Positions 30,150 through 63,577 of a stretch of 64,000 nucleotides of DNA are shown one piece after another. The stretch is from NCBI RefSeq assembly GCF_011947285.1, contig NZ_JAAOZT010000003.1, positions 62,001-126,000 of the forward strand, in the 5' to 3' direction. How positions within the stretch are numbered: position 1 is the stretch's first letter; every line of letters begins with the position of its first letter. Source of the stretch: Glaciimonas immobilis. GTDB lineage: Bacteria; Pseudomonadota; Gammaproteobacteria; Burkholderiales; Burkholderiaceae_D. Under the pieces are notes generated by a model. It made no database searches and was not told the origin of the DNA. It saw only the letters and a list, made by a program, of their open reading frames with translations. The translations under genes were made by a program, and so were the position numbers.

Positions 30150-30626
30150 TCACCCAGTCTCGTCTTCATCGAAATCGATATCATCGCCGCCGCTCTTTAT
30201 CGCAGCCTGTATCGCGCGATGAGAAAAGCCACGCTGCAATAAAAAACGCATTTGCTTCATGCGCTCGTTAGCGTCAACTGGCTGATGCCCGAATTTTCTT
30301 TGCCATACTTCGCGGGCACGGGCGACCTCTCCGTCCGCAAGTTGTGTCTTAAGCGAATTAATCGCCTCGGCGTTAATACCGTGGCTTTTTAATTCCATAA
30401 CGATGCGGCTATTTCCGTATCGTGCTGCCCGACGGTGGACGAGCGATTCTGAAAATCGCTCTTGGGATAGAAATTTCGACGCCTCCAACCAGTCCAGCAA
30501 CACCTCAACATTATCGCCCTCCTGTATATACCGCGATAGCTTGCGCGATAACTCCATGCGACTATGCTCACGCATCGATAAATATCGAAGCGCACGAGAT
30601 TTAAGGCTGATTGTCGGTTTTGCCAT
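30150..30626 (-). CDS. recX: Regulatory protein RecX
   Basis: Binds RecA filaments and limits their extension. ATG 30626 ([20 protein letters not shown]) is preferred over the TTG-initiated extension to 30647. Three-helix repeats typical of RecX are visible: [33 protein letters not shown], and [19 protein letters not shown]. 158 residues. Directly downstream of recA (76-base gap), as is usual, so probably co-transcribed under SOS control. Confidence 0.95.
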
Positions 30627-30702
30627 TACTGAATGCGGTTCCCACAAATTAAAAATCGAACCGAAAACATGGCGCTTTCAGTTCGATTTTGCACAACTAC
30701 GC

Positions 30703-31824
30703 TTATTCTGGTTTTGCTGCCGCTGCGGCTTCTTTGGCGGCTGCTTTTTCCGCTGCTTTGGCGGCTTTCTCTGCCGATTTGTCTGTTTCGGCTGAAATTG
30801 CCCCTTCTAGCAACGGTACGCCTAACGAGGCACGTACTTTATTTTCGATCTCACGCGCCAGTTCTGGGCGTTCTTTAAGGTAGTTACGTGCATTGTCCTT
30901 ACCTTGCCCAATGCGTTCACCGTTGTAGCTATACCAGGCGCCCGATTTTTCAACGATTTTTGCGTCTGAACCGAGATCCAGAATTTCGCCTTCACGTGAA
31001 GTACCTGTGCCGTACAAAATGTCAAAATGCGCTTCCTTGAACGGCGGTGCAATTTTGTTTTTGACGACTTTGACGCGTGTTTCGTTACCAATCACTTCGT
31101 CGCCAGATTTAATTGAGCCGGTACGGCGAATATCCAGACGGACCGAGGCGTAGAACTTCAATGCATTACCACCAGTGGTGGTTTCTGGGTTGCCGAACAT
31201 GACGCCAATTTTCATACGAATCTGGTTAATGAAAATAACCAAAGTGTTGGTACGATTAATACTACCGGTCAATTTGCGCAACGCTTGCGACATCAGACGT
31301 GCTTGCAGACCTGGTAATGAATCACCCATGTCGCCTTCAATCTCGGCGCGCGGGGTCAATGCCGCAACGGAGTCAATAACGATCAGGTCAACGCCACCCG
31401 AGCGCACCAGCGCATCGGTGATTTCAAGCGCCTGCTCGCCCGTGTCTGGCTGCGAAATCAGCAAATCTGCCAGATTGATACCTAATTTTTGCGCATAACC
31501 GACGTCAAGCGCGTGTTCTGCATCAATAAATGCACAGGTACCGCCAAGCTTTTGCATCTCGGCAATTGTTTGCAGTGTCAGCGTCGTTTTACCCGATGAC
31601 TCAGGCCCGTAAATTTCGACTACCCGGCCACGCGGCAAACCGCCGACGCCCAGCGCGATGTCGAGACCGAGCGATCCGGTAGAGACAACCTGTACTTCTT
31701 CAACCACAGCGCCATCTTCCATGCGCATGATTGAGCCCTTGCCGAATTGCTTTTCGATTTGCGCCAATGCTGCGGCAAGAGCCTTACTTTTATCGGGATT
31801 TGCTGCGGATTTTTTATCGTCCAT
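30703..31824 (-). CDS. recA: Recombinase A
   Basis: Strand-exchange ATPase and LexA co-protease. Walker A is [13 protein letters not shown] (residues ~73-85), Walker [11 protein letters not shown], and loop L2 [31 protein letters not shown]-like region is intact. The 373-residue length is slightly long because of an Ala/Lys/Glu-rich C-terminal tail ([19 protein letters not shown]), common in betaproteobacteria. A LexA box sits 50 bases upstream of the ATG. Confidence 0.99.
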
Positions 31825-32084: not shown

Positions 32085-32660
32085 TTAGCGATGAATTACA
32101 ACCAGTAACGCCCTGGCATCTGTCTTTCCCGTATTGCGTATTGCGTGATTTTTATCGGCTTGATAACGGGCAGTGCCGCCTACTTTCAATTTTTTCTTCA
32201 CGCCATCGACTACTACCTCTACCCCGCCATTCAACAAAGTCAAATGCTCCATGGTGCCCGGATCATGCGGTGTGGAAATCAGCGCGCCTTCCGAGGCCAA
32301 TGTCAGTTCATACCACTCATACTTTCCCGCCAGGTCCATCGGCCCCAAAATTCGCAGTACATAACCGGCATGCAGGCCGGGTAATGTCGGCGTCTCATGC
32401 GGCTCCATGATATGGATGACCTCCCGTTCCGAGGTGTCCGTGGCAAGTAGTTCCTCGATGCCAATTCCGAGAGCGTTAGCCAGCCGCCACGTGACAGCAA
32501 TCGTCGGGTTAGCTTTTTCGCGCTCAATCTGAGACAGCATTGATTTGGAAACACCTGCCGCGCGCGATAAATCGTCTAGTGTCAGCCCGCGCTTCAGGCG
32601 CAGTCTTTGCAGCGTAGCCCCGACTTCTGGAGGTGGATTGCTGGAAATAAGAGGATGCAT
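32085..32660 (-). CDS. XRE-family regulator with C-terminal cupin domain
   Basis: 191 residues. Residues ~13-67 form an HTH_3 domain (LKRGLTLDDLSRAAGVSKSM, SQIEREKANPTIAVTWRLAN) and the C-terminal half a cupin_2 domain (HDPGTMEHLTLLNGGVEVVVDG, KNHAIRNTG). Such regulators sense small molecules, often amino acids or amines, through the cupin. It is divergent from kbl-tdh and separated from it by a large palindromic operator, so it probably controls threonine catabolism and itself. Confidence 0.9.
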   Translation of the reverse strand: MHPLISSNPPPEVGATLQRLRLKRGLTLDDLSRAAGVSKSMLSQIEREKANPTIAVTWRLANALGIGIEELLATDTSEREVIHIMEPHETPTLPGLHAGYVLRILGPMDLAGKYEWYELTLASEGALISTPHDPGTMEHLTLLNGGVEVVVDGVKKKLKVGGTARYQADKNHAIRNTGKTDARALLVVIHR

Positions 32661-33047
32661 AAATGTGCTTGCTATGTTGAATGGCAGTGGTTAATATCCA
32701 CTATATTGAATCTTTGTTCGATATAGTGGATATTTTCTTTATATCGAACTATATCCTACCAGACGGAATGCATTAAACCGTATTAAGTTGGATTAAAGTA
32801 GTCGTAGGTACCGACCAGGTCATGTTAAGGCGATATATATTCCCCCGTTAAATGATTTTCCAGGACAGTAACCGGCCTCAGAGGTTGCCGCCTATACATG
32901 AACGGCGATAGCCTATAGCGGCCACTTGGCAGCCCTGAATAAACCCGAGCATTCGTACCCGCACGTGCCCCGAGCCGCGGCTGCGCACAAAGCAAGCGCG
33001 CAAGTCTTAAGATACGTTGCGTGCATCGAAATTGATAAGGAGTTGTA
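32661..33047. other. Divergent control region, regulator / kbl
   Basis: About 390 bases holding the palindromic operator near the regulator gene and a ribosome-binding site (AAGGAG) for kbl. Nothing else recognised. Confidence 0.6.
32693..32749. promoter_or_regulatory. Composite palindromic operator
   Basis: AATATCCACTATAT (32693-32706) and ATATAGTGGATATT (32721-32734) are perfect 14-base complements. Overlapping them, GTTCGATATA (32716-32725) pairs with TATATCGAAC (32740-32749). The nested arms look like a tandem binding array for the adjacent XRE-cupin regulator, 33 bases from its start codon. Confidence 0.85.
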
Positions 33048-34262
33048 ATGACATTGCCATCCCCCAAAGCAAACTTTTACGCTGATTTAGACGCCAACCT
33101 GAACGGCCTTCGCACTCAGGGCCTATATAAGCAAGAACGCGTGATCAGTTCTCGACAAGGTGCAGAAGTGCTATGCGACGATGGCCGCACCCTTCTCAAC
33201 CTCTGCGCGAATAATTATCTGGGCTTGTCCGGGGATGAAAAATTAGTCCAGGCATCCATTGATGCCACCCGGCAATATGGATACGGCCTATCTTCAGTGC
33301 GCTTTATTTGCGGCACGCAAACCGTTCACAAGCAACTGGAACAGGCGTTGTCGGCATTTCTCGGGATGGAAGACACGGTTCTGTACGCCGCAGCGTTTGA
33401 TGCCAATGGCGGATTGTTTGAGCCGCTGTTTGATGAGCAAGACGCGATCATCTCCGACACGTTAAATCACGCATCCATCATTGACGGTATCCGTCTGTGT
33501 AAAGCCAACCGTTTCCGTTATGCGCACAACGACATGGGCGATCTGGAACTCCAGCTGCAGGCAGCAGCCGACAAGCGCCACAAAGTGATTGTGACGGATG
33601 GCGTATTTTCGATGGATGGCACGATTGCCCAACTCGACAAGATCTGCGATCTGGCGGACAAATACGGCGCATTGGTCATGATCGATGAATGCCATGCCTC
33701 CGGCTTCATGGGCCAGACCGGACGCGGTACCCACGAGCATCATCATGTCATGGGCCGCATCGACATCATCACGGGCACACTCGGCAAAGCACTTGGTGGC
33801 GCAATGGGCGGCTTCACCGCGGCACGACGCGAAGTGATTGAGACGTTGCGCCAGAAATCACGGCCCTATTTGTTTTCCAATACGTTGGCACCATCGATCG
33901 CCGGTGCATCGCTGTCGGTACTGAACATGCTCTTATCCTCCACCGAACTGCGTGATCGCTTGCACGCCAATACTGCGCATTTCCGCCACCACATCACGCA
34001 ATTGGGATTCACTATCAAACCCGGTACGCATCCGATTGTGCCCGTGATGCTGTTCGATGCGCCGGTTGCACAGCAATTTGCGCAACGGCTATATGCGCTG
34101 GGCGTCCTGGTGACCGGCTTCTTCTATCCTGTCGTACCAATGGGACAAGCGCGCGTGCGCGTGCAACTGTCTGCGGCGCACACCACTGCGCAACTCGATC
34201 AGGCTTTGGCGGCTTTTGCGCAAGTCGGACGTGAGCTCGGCTTACTGAAAAATCAGGAATAG
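33048..34262 (+). CDS. kbl: Glycine C-acetyltransferase (2-amino-3-ketobutyrate CoA ligase)
   Basis: Second step of threonine degradation: 2-amino-3-oxobutyrate plus CoA gives glycine and acetyl-CoA. PLP-dependent alpha-oxoamine synthase family with [26 protein letters not shown], the [13 protein letters not shown] Asp motif, and the PLP Lys in [14 protein letters not shown]. 404 residues is near the ~398 of E. coli Kbl. It begins six bases before tdh, so the two form an operon. Confidence 0.96.
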
Positions 34263-34267
34263 AAATA

Positions 34268-35227
34268 ATGGAAAAGATTCTGGTCATCGGCGCTAACGGT
34301 CAAATCGGTAGCGAACTGGTGGACGCGCTGATCGTGCAACATGGCGCTGACAACGTCATAGCCGCCGATATCAGCCCGTCCAGTCTGTATGGCGCTCCGC
34401 GTTATGAGCGCGTGGACGTACTGGATAGCAACCGGCTTGCGGAAGTTGTCGCACGCCACGCAATCACGCAGGTCTATCAACTGGCAGCGATGTTGTCCGT
34501 GACTGGCGAACAGGCCCCGTTGAGGGCATGGACGTTGAATATAAACGGCTTGCTGAATATTTTGGAACTGGCGCGTGAACGTGGTCTGGCCGGGAAACCT
34601 TTGCGATTATTCTGGCCATCATCGGTCGCCGCATTTGGACCCCATACGCCAGCGATTGATACGCCCCAGTTGACGATTATGGATCCGACTACCATTTATG
34701 GAATCAGTAAACAGGCGGGTGAACGACTCTGCGAATATTATTTTACCAAGTATGGCATTGATGTCCGCAGCATTCGCTACCCTGGCGTCATCAGCTATAA
34801 ATCGCCACCCGGCGGCGGCACCACCGACTATGCGATTGCGATTTTTCATGCAGCCAAACGAGGTGAAGTCTATACATGTTTTCTTGGCCCCGAAACGACG
34901 TTGCCGATGATCTATATGCCTGACGCTATACGCGCCACCATGGGTATTATGGCGGCTCCGGCAACGCAAATCCGCGTGCGCTCATCTTACAATGTCGCAG
35001 GAGTCAGCTTTAATCCGGCCCAGTTAGCCAGTCTCATCAAGGACGCGTTACCGGAATTTGAAGTGCGATATCACCCGGACGAGCGGCAGGAAATCGCCGA
35101 TAGCTGGCCGCAGAGTCTTGACGATACGCAGGCCCAAACTGATTGGGGTTGGCATGCCGAGATCGGTATGGAAGCGTTAGTCGCAGACATGCTGGCAAAT
35201 ATCCCTGTCAGAAAGCTGGATGCTTGA
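34268..35227 (+). CDS. SDR-type L-threonine 3-dehydrogenase
   Basis: 319-residue NAD-dependent epimerase/dehydratase-type SDR: Rossmann motif GANGQIGSEL (residues ~7-16), Ser in WPSSVAAFGP and the YxxxK dyad in TIYGISKQAGE. The context right after kbl points to the SDR-type threonine dehydrogenase (the extended-SDR kind known from Cupriavidus and Flavobacterium), not the zinc MDR type of E. coli. The product is 2-amino-3-oxobutyrate, the Kbl substrate. Confidence 0.9.
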   Translation: MEKILVIGANGQIGSELVDALIVQHGADNVIAADISPSSLYGAPRYERVDVLDSNRLAEVVARHAITQVYQLAAMLSVTGEQAPLRAWTLNINGLLNILELARERGLAGKPLRLFWPSSVAAFGPHTPAIDTPQLTIMDPTTIYGISKQAGERLCEYYFTKYGIDVRSIRYPGVISYKSPPGGGTTDYAIAIFHAAKRGEVYTCFLGPETTLPMIYMPDAIRATMGIMAAPATQIRVRSSYNVAGVSFNPAQLASLIKDALPEFEVRYHPDERQEIADSWPQSLDDTQAQTDWGWHAEIGMEALVADMLANIPVRKLDA

Positions 35228-35348: not shown

Positions 35349-36842
35349 TTACCAGGTAGTGTCGATATCCAGCGGATAAATTGGCCGACGTACATTTTTG
35401 ATCGGAAACAAATCAAAATTGGAACTGGTCGGTCCGCCGGTATCGGAATCGCATTCTTCCAAACCTCTGCTGATAGGGCCGAATACCGGGCGGCAATACA
35501 TGCGTGATTTCAACAGCAGGAAGGTTTTGGCAGTAGGATCAAGCCCCAGGCTGGTGAATACGCCCAGGTCGTACGGCTCCACCCGCTCTTCGGTAACCAC
35601 GATTTGAGCGACGCCGATATCGAACAATACGCTTCTTCCCATCGCTATCGTCGACCCGGTATAGATCGGTCCGGTTACGTGAACCTGGCCGTCCGTAATC
35701 GCCAATACTTTACCAGTCAATGTGAGCGGTGTTTTGGTGATGCCTTGCTTGGTCAGCGCTACGTTATTACCGAGCGGCACGGTGACGATCGCACCGACTC
35801 CCGCCGCAATCAATTCGGCAACCGCTTGCGGATCGCTGATTGGTCCGACGCCGATATCCTCCAGACCTTCCGCGATGGCACCCTGCAACACATCCATGGT
35901 GTTACACGTGCCGCCGGACATGACGTTATCGCTGTGATCGAGCAACAGCACTGGACCAACACCAGGGCCTGCCGCCAGTCCTTTTGCGCGCGCGAGCGAA
36001 AGGCGCAATGGCTTGCTGTCGTAGACAAAGCCGTCGCGTTCCTTCCAGATTGAGCGTGCGATTTTTTCGGCCACCAGATCGGCGAGTACAGGATCGTTGT
36101 CTGCGACCACTACTACCGACATCCCGGCGTCCTTAAAATCGGATAAAGGAAAACCAGCAAAGATTGACACCGCTAACACCCCCGGTTCCGCTTCTGCCGC
36201 GATAGCGGCCTGCACTCCTCGTTGCATTGCGCTGGCGGACGTATTGCTGGTCAGCGAGGCGGATAGCAGCGGCAATTGACGCCAGCCGATTACGGGTCGG
36301 CTTTTTTGTCGCAGCAGATCGACTAGCAAGCGCCCCGCATGCTCGCCTGCCTCATACATATCGACGTGCGGATAGGTCTTGAAACTAACAATGATATCGG
36401 CATTATCGATGATCTTCTGCGTCACGTTACCGTGCAAATCGAGCGCGACACACAAAGGTGTATCCGGTGCGATGGCGCGTATTTTTTGTAATAGCGAGCC
36501 CTCCCCATCTTCCGCATTTTCGGCCACCATCGCGCCGTGCAAATCTAGCATAATGGCGTCGCAACCGGCCGCGATAGCCCGCAGAATGGCGTCATTCATG
36601 AGCGTATAAGCGTCGGCTGCGACCGCGGCACTGGGATTAGCCATGGCCGCGATCGGTGTAACGATCGTGGCACCGAGACCATCTGCGATATCCAGAAAGG
36701 CGCCCATCGCCGTACGCGCTCCTTTTTGATCCTGATAGGCTGCCTCATCCCATTGCGGTACAAATGCATCGAGCGGTGTGGCGATCGGCGAAAAAGTATT
36801 CGTCTCGTGATTCAGGCGTGCAATAACAATTTTTAATGGCAT
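35349..36842 (-). CDS. M81-family metallopeptidase (MlrC-like)
   Basis: 497 residues, related to MlrC of the microcystin degradation pathway. The start carries the family motif IARLNHETNTFSP with a putative zinc His, followed by MLDLHGAM and LDLHGN-type His motifs and a DHSDNVMSGGTCNT segment. M81 proteins in most bacteria are of unknown natural substrate; microcystin breakdown need not be implied. It lies just downstream of a carbamoylase-like hydrolase (3-base gap) and an ABC importer, suggesting processing of an imported peptide-like or amide compound. Confidence 0.9.
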   Translation of the reverse strand: MPLKIVIARLNHETNTFSPIATPLDAFVPQWDEAAYQDQKGARTAMGAFLDIADGLGATIVTPIAAMANPSAAVAADAYTLMNDAILRAIAAGCDAIMLDLHGAMVAENAEDGEGSLLQKIRAIAPDTPLCVALDLHGNVTQKIIDNADIIVSFKTYPHVDMYEAGEHAGRLLVDLLRQKSRPVIGWRQLPLLSASLTSNTSASAMQRGVQAAIAAEAEPGVLAVSIFAGFPLSDFKDAGMSVVVVADNDPVLADLVAEKIARSIWKERDGFVYDSKPLRLSLARAKGLAAGPGVGPVLLLDHSDNVMSGGTCNTMDVLQGAIAEGLEDIGVGPISDPQAVAELIAAGVGAIVTVPLGNNVALTKQGITKTPLTLTGKVLAITDGQVHVTGPIYTGSTIAMGRSVLFDIGVAQIVVTEERVEPYDLGVFTSLGLDPTAKTFLLLKSRMYCRPVFGPISRGLEECDSDTGGPTSSNFDLFPIKNVRRPIYPLDIDTTW

Positions 36843-36845
36843 GGC

Positions 36846-38141
36846 TTATTCCTCAGATTTAATCACGCTTCGTAGATTATTTTTAGACGGGACCACTACC
36901 GCGCTGGCCAATATGGCATGCAGCAAGACGTTGGCACCAGCTTCCAGATGTTCCGGTTTGGCGTCTTCGATTTCGTTATGGCTGACGCCATCTTTGCACG
37001 GCACAAAAATCATGCCTGACGGAGCGACACGGGCCGTATAAATTGCATCATGCCCAGCGCCTGAGACCACGTCCATGGTCGCATAGCCCAGCATGCTGGC
37101 GGCATTGCGCACCTGGCCGACGCAGTCCGGATGGAAGTTGCAGGGCGGAAAATAGGAGACGCGTTCCAATGCTATTCCTAGTCCGCTCTGTGTGCGAATC
37201 TTATCGATGTAGGCATATAAGTCTGCGTTCATGCTATCCAGCGCTTCATCACTGACATTACGTAAATCGATCGAAAATTTCACCATCCCGGGAATCACGT
37301 TGCGACTATTCGGCATGACTTGCACCGCGCCGACCGTGCCGCGGCCATACGGGGCATAACGTAGCGCGATTGCCACCACCTCCTGCATAATGTAGGTCGA
37401 GACTTGCAACGCATCCTTGCGGATTGCCATCGGCGTCGGTCCCGCATGCGATTCAAAACCCGTCACCGTGCAATCGTACCAAGACAGGCCGAGTACTGCC
37501 GGCACCACGCCGATCACGGTATCGGCGTTCTCCAGCACTGGCCCCTGTTCAATATGCGCCTCGTAGTACGCGCCGATAGGATGGTCGCCACATAGTTGAT
37601 CGCCGATATAACCGATCCGGGTCAATTCGTCCTTCACCGTTATTCCGCCAGTGTCGGCCGCGGCATAGGCATGCTCCAGCGTGAACGCACCGCAAAAGAC
37701 GCCGGAGCCCATCATTACCGGCACAAAGCGTGACCCTTCTTCATTGGTCCAGACTGCCACCTCAATCGGTGCTTCGGTCTGAATATTGTAATGATTTAGC
37801 GTGCGGATAATTTCGATGCCCGCCAGCACGCCGTAATTGCCGTCAAATTTGCCGCCGGTCGGTTGCGTGTCTATATGCGAACCGGTGACAACCGGAGGCA
37901 GATCGTTGTTGCGTCCAGCACGGCGCATGAAGATATTACCGATCTGGTCGACCGTTACGCTCATACCTTCTGCGATTGCCCAGCCCGAGACCAGATCGCG
38001 GCCTTGTTTATCCAGGTCGGTAAGCGCCAGACGACAGACGCCGCCTTTTGGCGTCGCGCCGATCGCGCCCAGATCCATCAGCGAGCGCCACAAGCGGGTG
38101 CCGTCTATGCGTAAAGCATCAGTTGGTGAAATAGCCTTCAT
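36846..38141 (-). CDS. Zn-dependent amidohydrolase of the allantoate amidohydrolase / N-carbamoyl amino acid hydrolase family
   Basis: 431-residue M20-type metallohydrolase (hydantoinase/carbamoylase family). Metal ligands are visible in VTGSHIDTQPTGGKFDGNYG (His, Asp), NEEGSRFVPVMMGSG (Glu-Glu), and EAHIEQGPVLE (His), with GAGHDA near the C-terminus. Family members hydrolyse N-carbamoyl amino acids, beta-ureidopropionate or allantoate; sequence alone does not choose. With a beta-alanine-type transaminase nearby, a ureidopropionase-like role is possible but unproven, as no dihydropyrimidinase is present. Confidence 0.9.
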   Translation of the reverse strand: MKAISPTDALRIDGTRLWRSLMDLGAIGATPKGGVCRLALTDLDKQGRDLVSGWAIAEGMSVTVDQIGNIFMRRAGRNNDLPPVVTGSHIDTQPTGGKFDGNYGVLAGIEIIRTLNHYNIQTEAPIEVAVWTNEEGSRFVPVMMGSGVFCGAFTLEHAYAAADTGGITVKDELTRIGYIGDQLCGDHPIGAYYEAHIEQGPVLENADTVIGVVPAVLGLSWYDCTVTGFESHAGPTPMAIRKDALQVSTYIMQEVVAIALRYAPYGRGTVGAVQVMPNSRNVIPGMVKFSIDLRNVSDEALDSMNADLYAYIDKIRTQSGLGIALERVSYFPPCNFHPDCVGQVRNAASMLGYATMDVVSGAGHDAIYTARVAPSGMIFVPCKDGVSHNEIEDAKPEHLEAGANVLLHAILASAVVVPSKNNLRSVIKSEE

Positions 38142-62000: not shown

Positions 62001-63577
62001 TTAAATTTTCTTTCTGAAATCCGTCTATCCCAACTTTTAACAAACAACTCAAACGCGATAATCTTCATAAAATCATAAGGTATTCCGCCTAAACCAATCG
62101 ACGAAGATATTAGTGTAGATTCAAATTTATCCAAGTCTAAAATTTCATGCTCATATAAATATCCGTTATAAACTAAATCCCTGATCTTTTCCCTTTTAGC
62201 ATATAGTGACTTTTGAAAGACTCCTGTAACATGCCCCTTAGTTCTACGAAAGATAGCAGCGGAATTACATCTTGCGAATATTTCTTCTCTAAAAACAAGT
62301 CGATCTTGTGTAGAGTTAAATAAATCGTATACGGGAATATCCCGCGCATATGAAATAACTGGTGAGCTTGTCAGCGGAAAACTGAGGTGACAATTTTCAA
62401 ATCGATTTTTTGAGTTACTATTTTCACATAGTGCTTGCTCTATACTATGATTCCTAAATTCTTCCCCATTTCCAAAGTGACCGTATTTCGTGCTGTGTTT
62501 ATCAAAATATGCAGCACAAATTGAGGGTTTAATATAGCGATTTTTAACGTAACTCGTTTCCGACTTTCTTTGTAGATATTCTTTGATTACTTGAACTAGG
62601 CCGACCCGACGATAGCAGGACAACTCAAGCGATTTTTTTAGAAAAAAAGCTAATCCTTTGTCTTTCAAAGCTTCTCTCAGCATGTGAACCGTAGGCGAGG
62701 CGTAGAAAACATGATCGCCGCCATGCCCGTTCAATATAAGTGGATATTTGACATTCAGTTTTTCTATTGATTTCTGTATAAAACTGCGTCTAAATTTTTC
62801 GAAACAAATAGCTACGGAGGGATTATCTGGATATTTATCAACAGTAATTACTTCGAACAACATGTCAGGGTCAATATCAAATATCACATGCTCAATTCCT
62901 AAGCTAAGTGCTATTTTTGCCCCATGATTAACGTCATCATTTGAACTGCACCCATTTGATGCCCATGTTGCAGCCAGAATTTTTTTATCATTGATAGCTG
63001 CTACCTCATGAGCCGCGTACATCAAGGTTGTTGAGTCTAGTCCACCTGAAAATTCGATAATAATGCCGTCACATTCGTTGGCATTTTTTCGTATTTCTGC
63101 CGCTATTACCGCGTACAGATTAGAACACGGCGACCGGATTTCGTCTAAAAGAAATGTTGTGCTCACGTCCAATTTTTTGGAGGAATAGTCAATCGTTATG
63201 GAAGTACCGGGCGGTACTATTGAAACCCCTTTCCAAATCGTATTTAATCGATTGACTTCCCCCAAAAAAATAAAATTAAGTGCACAACTAATATCTATTT
63301 CTGGGGCGCAACCTAAAATTTTCGTTAAGTCACTCGAAAATATTATCTGGTCTTCCAAGGTCGAAATATAAAAGCTGCGTGTAGATTCCAGCCCATTTTT
63401 GATGATTAACTTCGACTCGTAAATCTCCATATTAAACGAGGTATTTTCATCATATAAGAAGTAGGACAGATTTCTAAAATTTCCATCCGGGGTCGTCAAT
63501 CTGATCTGAGTATCCTGATAAGACTTGGGATAATTCAAATTATGAATTTCGAATTCATTTGCTATAATTTTTTTCAT
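61997..63577 (-). CDS. Lasso-peptide macrolactam synthetase, asparagine-synthetase-like (C protein)
   Basis: ATP-dependent enzyme that adenylates the Glu/Asp side chain and closes the isopeptide ring. The pyrophosphate loop SGGLDSTTL lies at residues 177-185 (IIEFSGGLDSTTLMYAAH). The N-terminal ~130 residues resemble the glutaminase domain of asparagine synthetase B but lack Cys at position 2 (the protein begins MKKIIANEF), so no glutamine hydrolysis is expected, as in other lasso C proteins. 526 residues. ATG 63577 with SD GGAAG nine bases upstream, which lies within a hairpin arm. Confidence 0.93.
   Translation of the reverse strand: MKKIIANEFEIHNLNYPKSYQDTQIRLTTPDGNFRNLSYFLYDENTSFNMEIYESKLIIKNGLESTRSFYISTLEDQIIFSSDLTKILGCAPEIDISCALNFIFLGEVNRLNTIWKGVSIVPPGTSITIDYSSKKLDVSTTFLLDEIRSPCSNLYAVIAAEIRKNANECDGIIIEFSGGLDSTTLMYAAHEVAAINDKKILAATWASNGCSSNDDVNHGAKIALSLGIEHVIFDIDPDMLFEVITVDKYPDNPSVAICFEKFRRSFIQKSIEKLNVKYPLILNGHGGDHVFYASPTVHMLREALKDKGLAFFLKKSLELSCYRRVGLVQVIKEYLQRKSETSYVKNRYIKPSICAAYFDKHSTKYGHFGNGEEFRNHSIEQALCENSNSKNRFENCHLSFPLTSSPVISYARDIPVYDLFNSTQDRLVFREEIFARCNSAAIFRRTKGHVTGVFQKSLYAKREKIRDLVYNGYLYEHEILDLDKFESTLISSSIGLGGIPYDFMKIIAFELFVKSWDRRISERKFK

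Follow-up and report, generated by a model that had tools for sequence, protein, structure and literature searches.

A predicted tandem operator linking an XRE-cupin regulator to the divergent kbl-tdh operon of Glaciimonas immobilis and its relatives

Results

Tandem 14-bp palindromes between an XRE-cupin gene and kbl-tdh

Comparison with relatives suggests that the palindromic DNA between an XRE-cupin regulator gene and the divergent kbl-tdh operon of Glaciimonas immobilis is very probably an operator on which two to three dimers of an XRE-cupin repressor would be bound, a repressor that would be dedicated to kbl-tdh and regulate its own gene. The conserved unit is a 14-bp palindrome with the consensus TTCRATATAYTGAA. 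Three predicted operator sites were located in the window, i.e. the whole stretch of 64,000 nucleotides that was analyzed: site A, TCCACTATATTGAA (32697-32710, position weight matrix (PWM) score 18.9), which is found at the same place in relatives; site B, TTCGATATAGTGGA (32717-32730, score 18.6), centered 20 bp from A; and site C, TTCTTTATATCGAA (32735-32748, score 19.2), centered 18 bp from B. None of them is assigned to a strand. No other 14-mer in the 64 kb scores as high as these three, site C having been left out of the construction of the matrix.

The original prediction had described two overlapping perfect inverted repeats, with arms of 14 and 10 bases, and both were found. The arms AATATCCACTATAT and ATATAGTGGATATT (32693-32706 and 32721-32734) form a perfect 14-base repeat, embedded in an 18-nt pair that is 94% complementary around a 6-nt loop (32693-32710 and 32717-32734); GTTCGATATA and TATATCGAAC (32716-32725 and 32740-32749) form a perfect 10-base repeat. 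Chance would hardly produce either at this locus: when the surrounding 160 nt were simulated 3000 times under a first-order Markov model, no perfect 14-base arms with a loop of at most 20 arose, and perfect 10-base arms did so in 0.5% of the runs. Across the whole 64 kb, three 14-base-arm repeats were counted against 0.03 expected (30 simulations).

The "nested" anatomy proposed for these repeats did not hold, the real unit being the 14-bp palindrome repeated at center distances of 20 and 18 bp; the nested appearance arises because symmetrical tandem sites also pair across neighbours. As judged from the aligned sequences, the long dyad is the symmetry between sites A and B. The 10-base repeat pairs the left half of site B with the right half of site C and, since a site like C is rare in relatives, it is read as joining half-sites of two neighbouring sites.

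The flanking genes were identified by domain and family matches, which confirmed the predicted setting between a cupin-XRE regulator and a divergent kbl-tdh operon. The regulator gene (32085-32660, minus strand) codes for 191 amino acids with the two domains of the XRE-cupin class, HTH_3 (53.9 bits, cut-off 23) and Cupin_2 (33.3 bits, cut-off 27.2). On the plus strand, kbl (33048-34262) codes for glycine C-acetyltransferase, or 2-amino-3-ketobutyrate CoA ligase (TIGR01822, 639.5 bits, cut-off 493), and tdh (34268-35227) for an SDR-type L-threonine 3-dehydrogenase. The tdh product was assigned from its solved relatives, 18 at E <= 1e-20, most of them named L-threonine (3-)dehydrogenase and the best at 1.3e-135; no NCBIfam model scored above its cut-off for this protein or for the regulator. 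Beyond tdh, on the opposite strand (35349-38141), lie genes for an MlrC-like protein (below cut-off) and an allantoate/N-carbamoyl amidohydrolase. On the other side of the regulator gene, to its left, frames that we take to be recX-like and recA-like occupy 30150-31824.

Conservation of the two-site element among close relatives

A contig scan yielded 227 stretches encoding relatives of the regulator, of which the best 80, 70-85% identical, were kept. They come from Noviherbaspirillum, Undibacterium, Massilia, Herminiimonas and other genera, which we take to be mostly Oxalobacteraceae, the family being assigned in part from the genus names. In 79 of these best 80, kbl lies divergently beside the regulator; the remaining stretch (L030) ends at a contig edge before kbl. 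The 79 intergenic regions of relatives and that of the window, 80 in all, were compared.

The palindrome had been expected to recur near orthologous operons, and it did so throughout: every one of the 79 comparable regions had the two-site element A + B between its XRE-cupin gene and kbl. An iterated 44-column PWM with the 20-bp spacing recovered it in 78 of the 80 regions (77 relatives and the window). In the other two it was present on reading, with a spacing of 21 bp in L039 (by eye) and of 20 bp in L057, where the estimated regulator start cuts the edge of the region; counts out of 78 omit these two.

The conserved columns make up four half-sites that form two 14-bp palindromes; each of the eight mirrored column pairs of these half-sites is complementary in 76-78 of the 78 regions. 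In some relatives the palindrome is exact, as in TTCGATATATCGAA; this holds at site A in 10 and at site B in 4 of 78 regions. Conservation is absent at column 31, within the core of site B, which marks B as the weaker site.

A further site (score at least 8) within 30 bases past B was found in 7 of 78 regions, including the window, at varying offsets; mononucleotide shuffles gave a mean of 0.47 and a maximum of 3 such regions. Three relatives (L058, L060 and L074) carry an extra 14-mer 20 bases before A and 40 before B, with scores of 10.1-13.9, that is, a third tandem site on the side opposite to site C of the window. The distance from the end of the element to kbl is 317 bases in the window against a median of 105 in relatives, the extra stretch lying within 32762-33047.

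The outer half-sites carry TC in one group of genomes and TT in a second; the two agree in 66 of 78 regions (29 C/G and 37 T/A) and are mismatched in 12. Their columns covary (C7 with G38), changing jointly on 7 branches of the regulator tree against 1.0 expected; since column 7 shares as many as 7 branches with non-partner columns too, this covariation counts as weak support.

Co-occurrence of the predicted operator with the adjacent regulator

Among 300 genomes drawn from the order, the regulator was matched in 20 at a threshold of 1e-20, at 52-100% identity in 15 and at about 33-35% in 5. kbl occurs in 50 of the 300, including all 15 genomes with a regulator at least 52% identical, and in every one of these 15 it is adjacent and divergent. 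The 5 genomes with only a 33-35% identical XRE protein have no kbl beside it.

With the adjacent regulator present, the best 14-mer upstream of kbl scored 14.2-23.2 in 14 of 14 genomes, the window omitted; these comprise 5 close relatives, at least 2 of which possibly overlap the PWM training set, and 9 distant ones outside it. With the regulator absent, it scored -11.3 to 3.5 in all of 20 genomes, sampled from the 35 that have kbl but lack such a regulator. In these genomes the presence of the predicted operator tracks the adjacent XRE-cupin regulator, 14 of 14 against 0 of 20, as it should if the palindromes were the operator going with that regulator, in line with the original prediction.

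The nine distant relatives (L095-L103, 52-62% identical) all keep the divergent kbl, with best 14-mers of 14.2-23.2; three of them have an exact palindrome. A second site stands at exactly 20 bp in four, at other spacings in L100 and L102, while L098, L101 and L103 have one clear site only. Two-dimer binding would thus not be universal.

Occurrence of the operator in the genome

The paired site without mismatch occurs once in the 4.9 Mb of the G. immobilis genome, as expected of the small, local regulons of XRE-cupins. With two mismatches allowed, one other match was obtained, against one for the reversed-pattern control. The single unit TYCNNTATANNGRA was found at 10 places, three of them being A, B and C, and the reversed pattern at 16. 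The 7 remaining matches are isolated; long open frames cover 3 of them but not the other 4.

No threonine gene was found alongside two of the latter four, L142 and L149, which have PWM scores of 15.3 and 17.5, respectively. The match L149:1501-1514 is near the start of what is presumably a LysR-type frame and ahead of a presumably reductase-like one; that of L142 comes just before a frame that we take to be IclR-like. The regulator may have a weak second target elsewhere in the genome. A wider regulon was considered and rejected: a loose initial pattern had 26 matches and its reversed control 24, and the paired pattern occurs without mismatch only here. A match of the loose pattern at 62730-62747 of the window, with a one-base shift, was taken as chance.

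Predicted promoters facing each other across the operator

A predicted kbl -10 hexamer, TAATAT (32692-32697, plus strand), abuts site A, which overlaps its last base and the predicted kbl start point at about 32704. The hexamer begins with T in 77 of the 80 regions and has A as its second base in 78, and the final two are AT in all 80. The first four bases are not mirrored on the opposite side and are thus not part of the palindrome. The predicted -35 hexamer is TTGCTA (32669-32674, plus strand); TTGnnn stands 17 bp (71 regions) or 16 bp (4 regions) upstream of the -10 in 75 of 78 regions, by raw count. A strict consensus scan for promoters gave no hit in the window, because both kbl hexamers match the consensus at only 4 of 6 positions; the predicted kbl promoter rests on conservation.

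For the regulator gene, an extended -10, TGGTAGGAT (32753-32761, minus strand), was predicted from the motif TGnTAnnnT. Of the 78 regions, 55 carry this motif in the stretch leading from the operator to kbl, 5 to 182 bases past the operator; Markov shuffles gave a mean of 13 such regions and at most 18. TTGAC-like and TAnnnT hexamers 17-18 bp apart were present in 18 of the 23 regions lacking it. In the window, site C lies over the predicted start point of this promoter, at about 32746 on the minus strand.

The kbl and regulator promoters thus appear to point toward one another from the two sides of the operator, in which case their first transcribed bases would be mutually antisense. The palindromes had been proposed to control both transcription units. 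The conserved -10 next to site A suggests that they sit on the kbl-tdh promoter, and the facing regulator promoter that they probably serve the regulator gene as well.

The regulator protein

The structure model of the regulator has helices at residues 12-71 and beta strands at 91-188; its confidence (mean pLDDT 79.4, pTM 0.49) is fair for the separate domains. The nearest solved relative, by sequence as well as by the Foldseek top match, is 1y9q, an HTH_3-family regulator of Vibrio cholerae. The recognition helix, SKSMLSQIE, is nearly invariant across 95 proteins, as expected for an unchanged DNA unit; a change in this helix behind the TCCA and TTCR outer half-sites was therefore rejected. 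The TCCA and TTCR groups do differ at residue 34 and at further positions outside the helix, which may simply reflect ancestry. In the cupin domain, H131, E137, H171 and other residues are invariant in 34 aligned proteins; these histidines and the glutamate would be compatible with a metal or amino-acid pocket.

Discussion

From the arrangement of sites and promoters we infer binding by the regulator, repression rather than activation, autoregulation, cooperativity and a ligand, as follows. Regulator dimers would bind the 14-bp palindromes of the tandem, which are A and B, joined in this genome by C; several dimers side by side, as originally suggested, are likely. Lying about two helical turns apart, the sites would present nearly one face of the DNA, and binding would probably be cooperative. 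A dimer at A would cover the -10 end and start point of the kbl-tdh promoter, and dimers at B and C would occupy the start and path of the facing regulator promoter, so that both kbl-tdh and the regulator's own gene would be repressed. A small molecule bound by the cupin, likely threonine or a breakdown product of it, would loosen the regulator's grip on DNA, and threonine could then be converted to glycine and acetyl-CoA. In a more elaborate version, which we hold to be unlikely, cooperative dimers between the facing promoters would combine repression, interference and autoregulation into a sharp, possibly two-state switch sensing 2-amino-3-ketobutyrate or aminoacetone and not threonine.

Activation of kbl-tdh by a regulator bound at these sites, or a dual role for it, is likewise improbable. 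The imperfect kbl -35, TTGCTA, would suit an activated promoter. However, the sites span the -10 to about 40 bases beyond the predicted kbl start, and activators rarely act from such positions. An XRE regulator, NceR, is named in the title of PMC10470515 as an activator of ompA, whereas the Pseudomonas XRE-cupins are titled, and in the part of the text consulted described, as inhibitors (PMC7901475). Repression with autoregulation is the simplest reading and agrees with the consulted parts of the Pseudomonas XRE-cupin papers. The sites could also belong to some other DNA-binding protein and merely adjoin the XRE-cupin gene; this we regard as very improbable, because the site was present in all 14 genomes compared that have the regulator and in none of the 20 that lack it, and because the paired site has a single occurrence in the G. 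immobilis genome.

There is also a small chance that the long dyad is an RNA hairpin in the kbl leader, acting as a terminator or attenuator. In the window a stem of 19 pairs followed by a T-rich tail is terminator-like by prediction and, with G-U pairs allowed on the kbl-sense strand, a median of 14 of 16 pairs is kept over the 78 regions (16 in the window, 10 at the lowest and at least 15 in 16 regions). The unbroken stem, however, falls from 19 in the window to a median of about 8.5 over the 78 regions, and two mirror-image protein sites already explain much of the pairing. The kept columns obey the symmetry within each 14-bp site, which a long stem would not need, and a single site can stand alone in distant relatives. 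An Rfam search of 32500-33150 returned no match, which also speaks against a hairpin or a riboswitch.

An operator of a dedicated repressor, our preferred reading, would give the threonine dehydrogenase pathway a precise predicted operator and a regulator of its own, in a switch predicted to be shared by many beta-proteobacteria within a single family and by some of their relatives elsewhere in the order. With its almost constant spacing, the 20-bp tandem is a natural data set on the pairing of XRE-cupin dimers on DNA, and the locus illustrates how tandem symmetrical sites can mimic nested palindromes.

In Escherichia coli the same pathway genes, kbl-tdh, are under Lrp, a global regulator instead of a dedicated neighbour, and the E. 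coli Tdh belongs to another enzyme family. A different route is indicated for Burkholderia pseudomallei, where kbl and tdh appear in the BsaN regulon table (PMC4236580, consulted in part). The portions of the literature searched describe no dedicated XRE-cupin regulator of kbl-tdh.

The XRE-cupins characterized in Pseudomonas are, in the sections consulted, local inhibitors with palindromes near the -10 (PMC7901475, PMC12724383), and here, likewise, a palindrome lies at the predicted promoter of an adjacent metabolic operon. PsdR, PauR, ErfA and other P. aeruginosa XRE-cupins are alike in having small, mostly local regulons with metabolic neighbours, palindromes thought to be bound by dimers and, for some, autoregulation; PsdR differs in its motif, TTAAGnnnnnCTTAA, and the targets are different ones, kbl-tdh not being among those named for these regulators in the text consulted (PMC7901475, PMC10965056).

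The partly consulted report on DbuR, from the dbu operon of Pseudomonas putida, provides another comparison (PMC12724383). DbuR too is an XRE-cupin encoded divergently from the amino-acid catabolic operon that it targets, although that operon serves D-branched-chain amino-acid catabolism and not threonine. Its palindrome, AATTCTCATATATTAGAATT, has the same TTC...TATA...GAA layout as the kbl-tdh unit but, on each side, TTC and GAA lie one base farther from the TATA core. The consulted text describes one palindrome, in contrast to the fixed tandem at kbl-tdh. The DbuR footprint covers 44 bp and includes the predicted -10 (PMC12724383), a length that would be compatible with two 14-bp sites at the 20-bp spacing as well.
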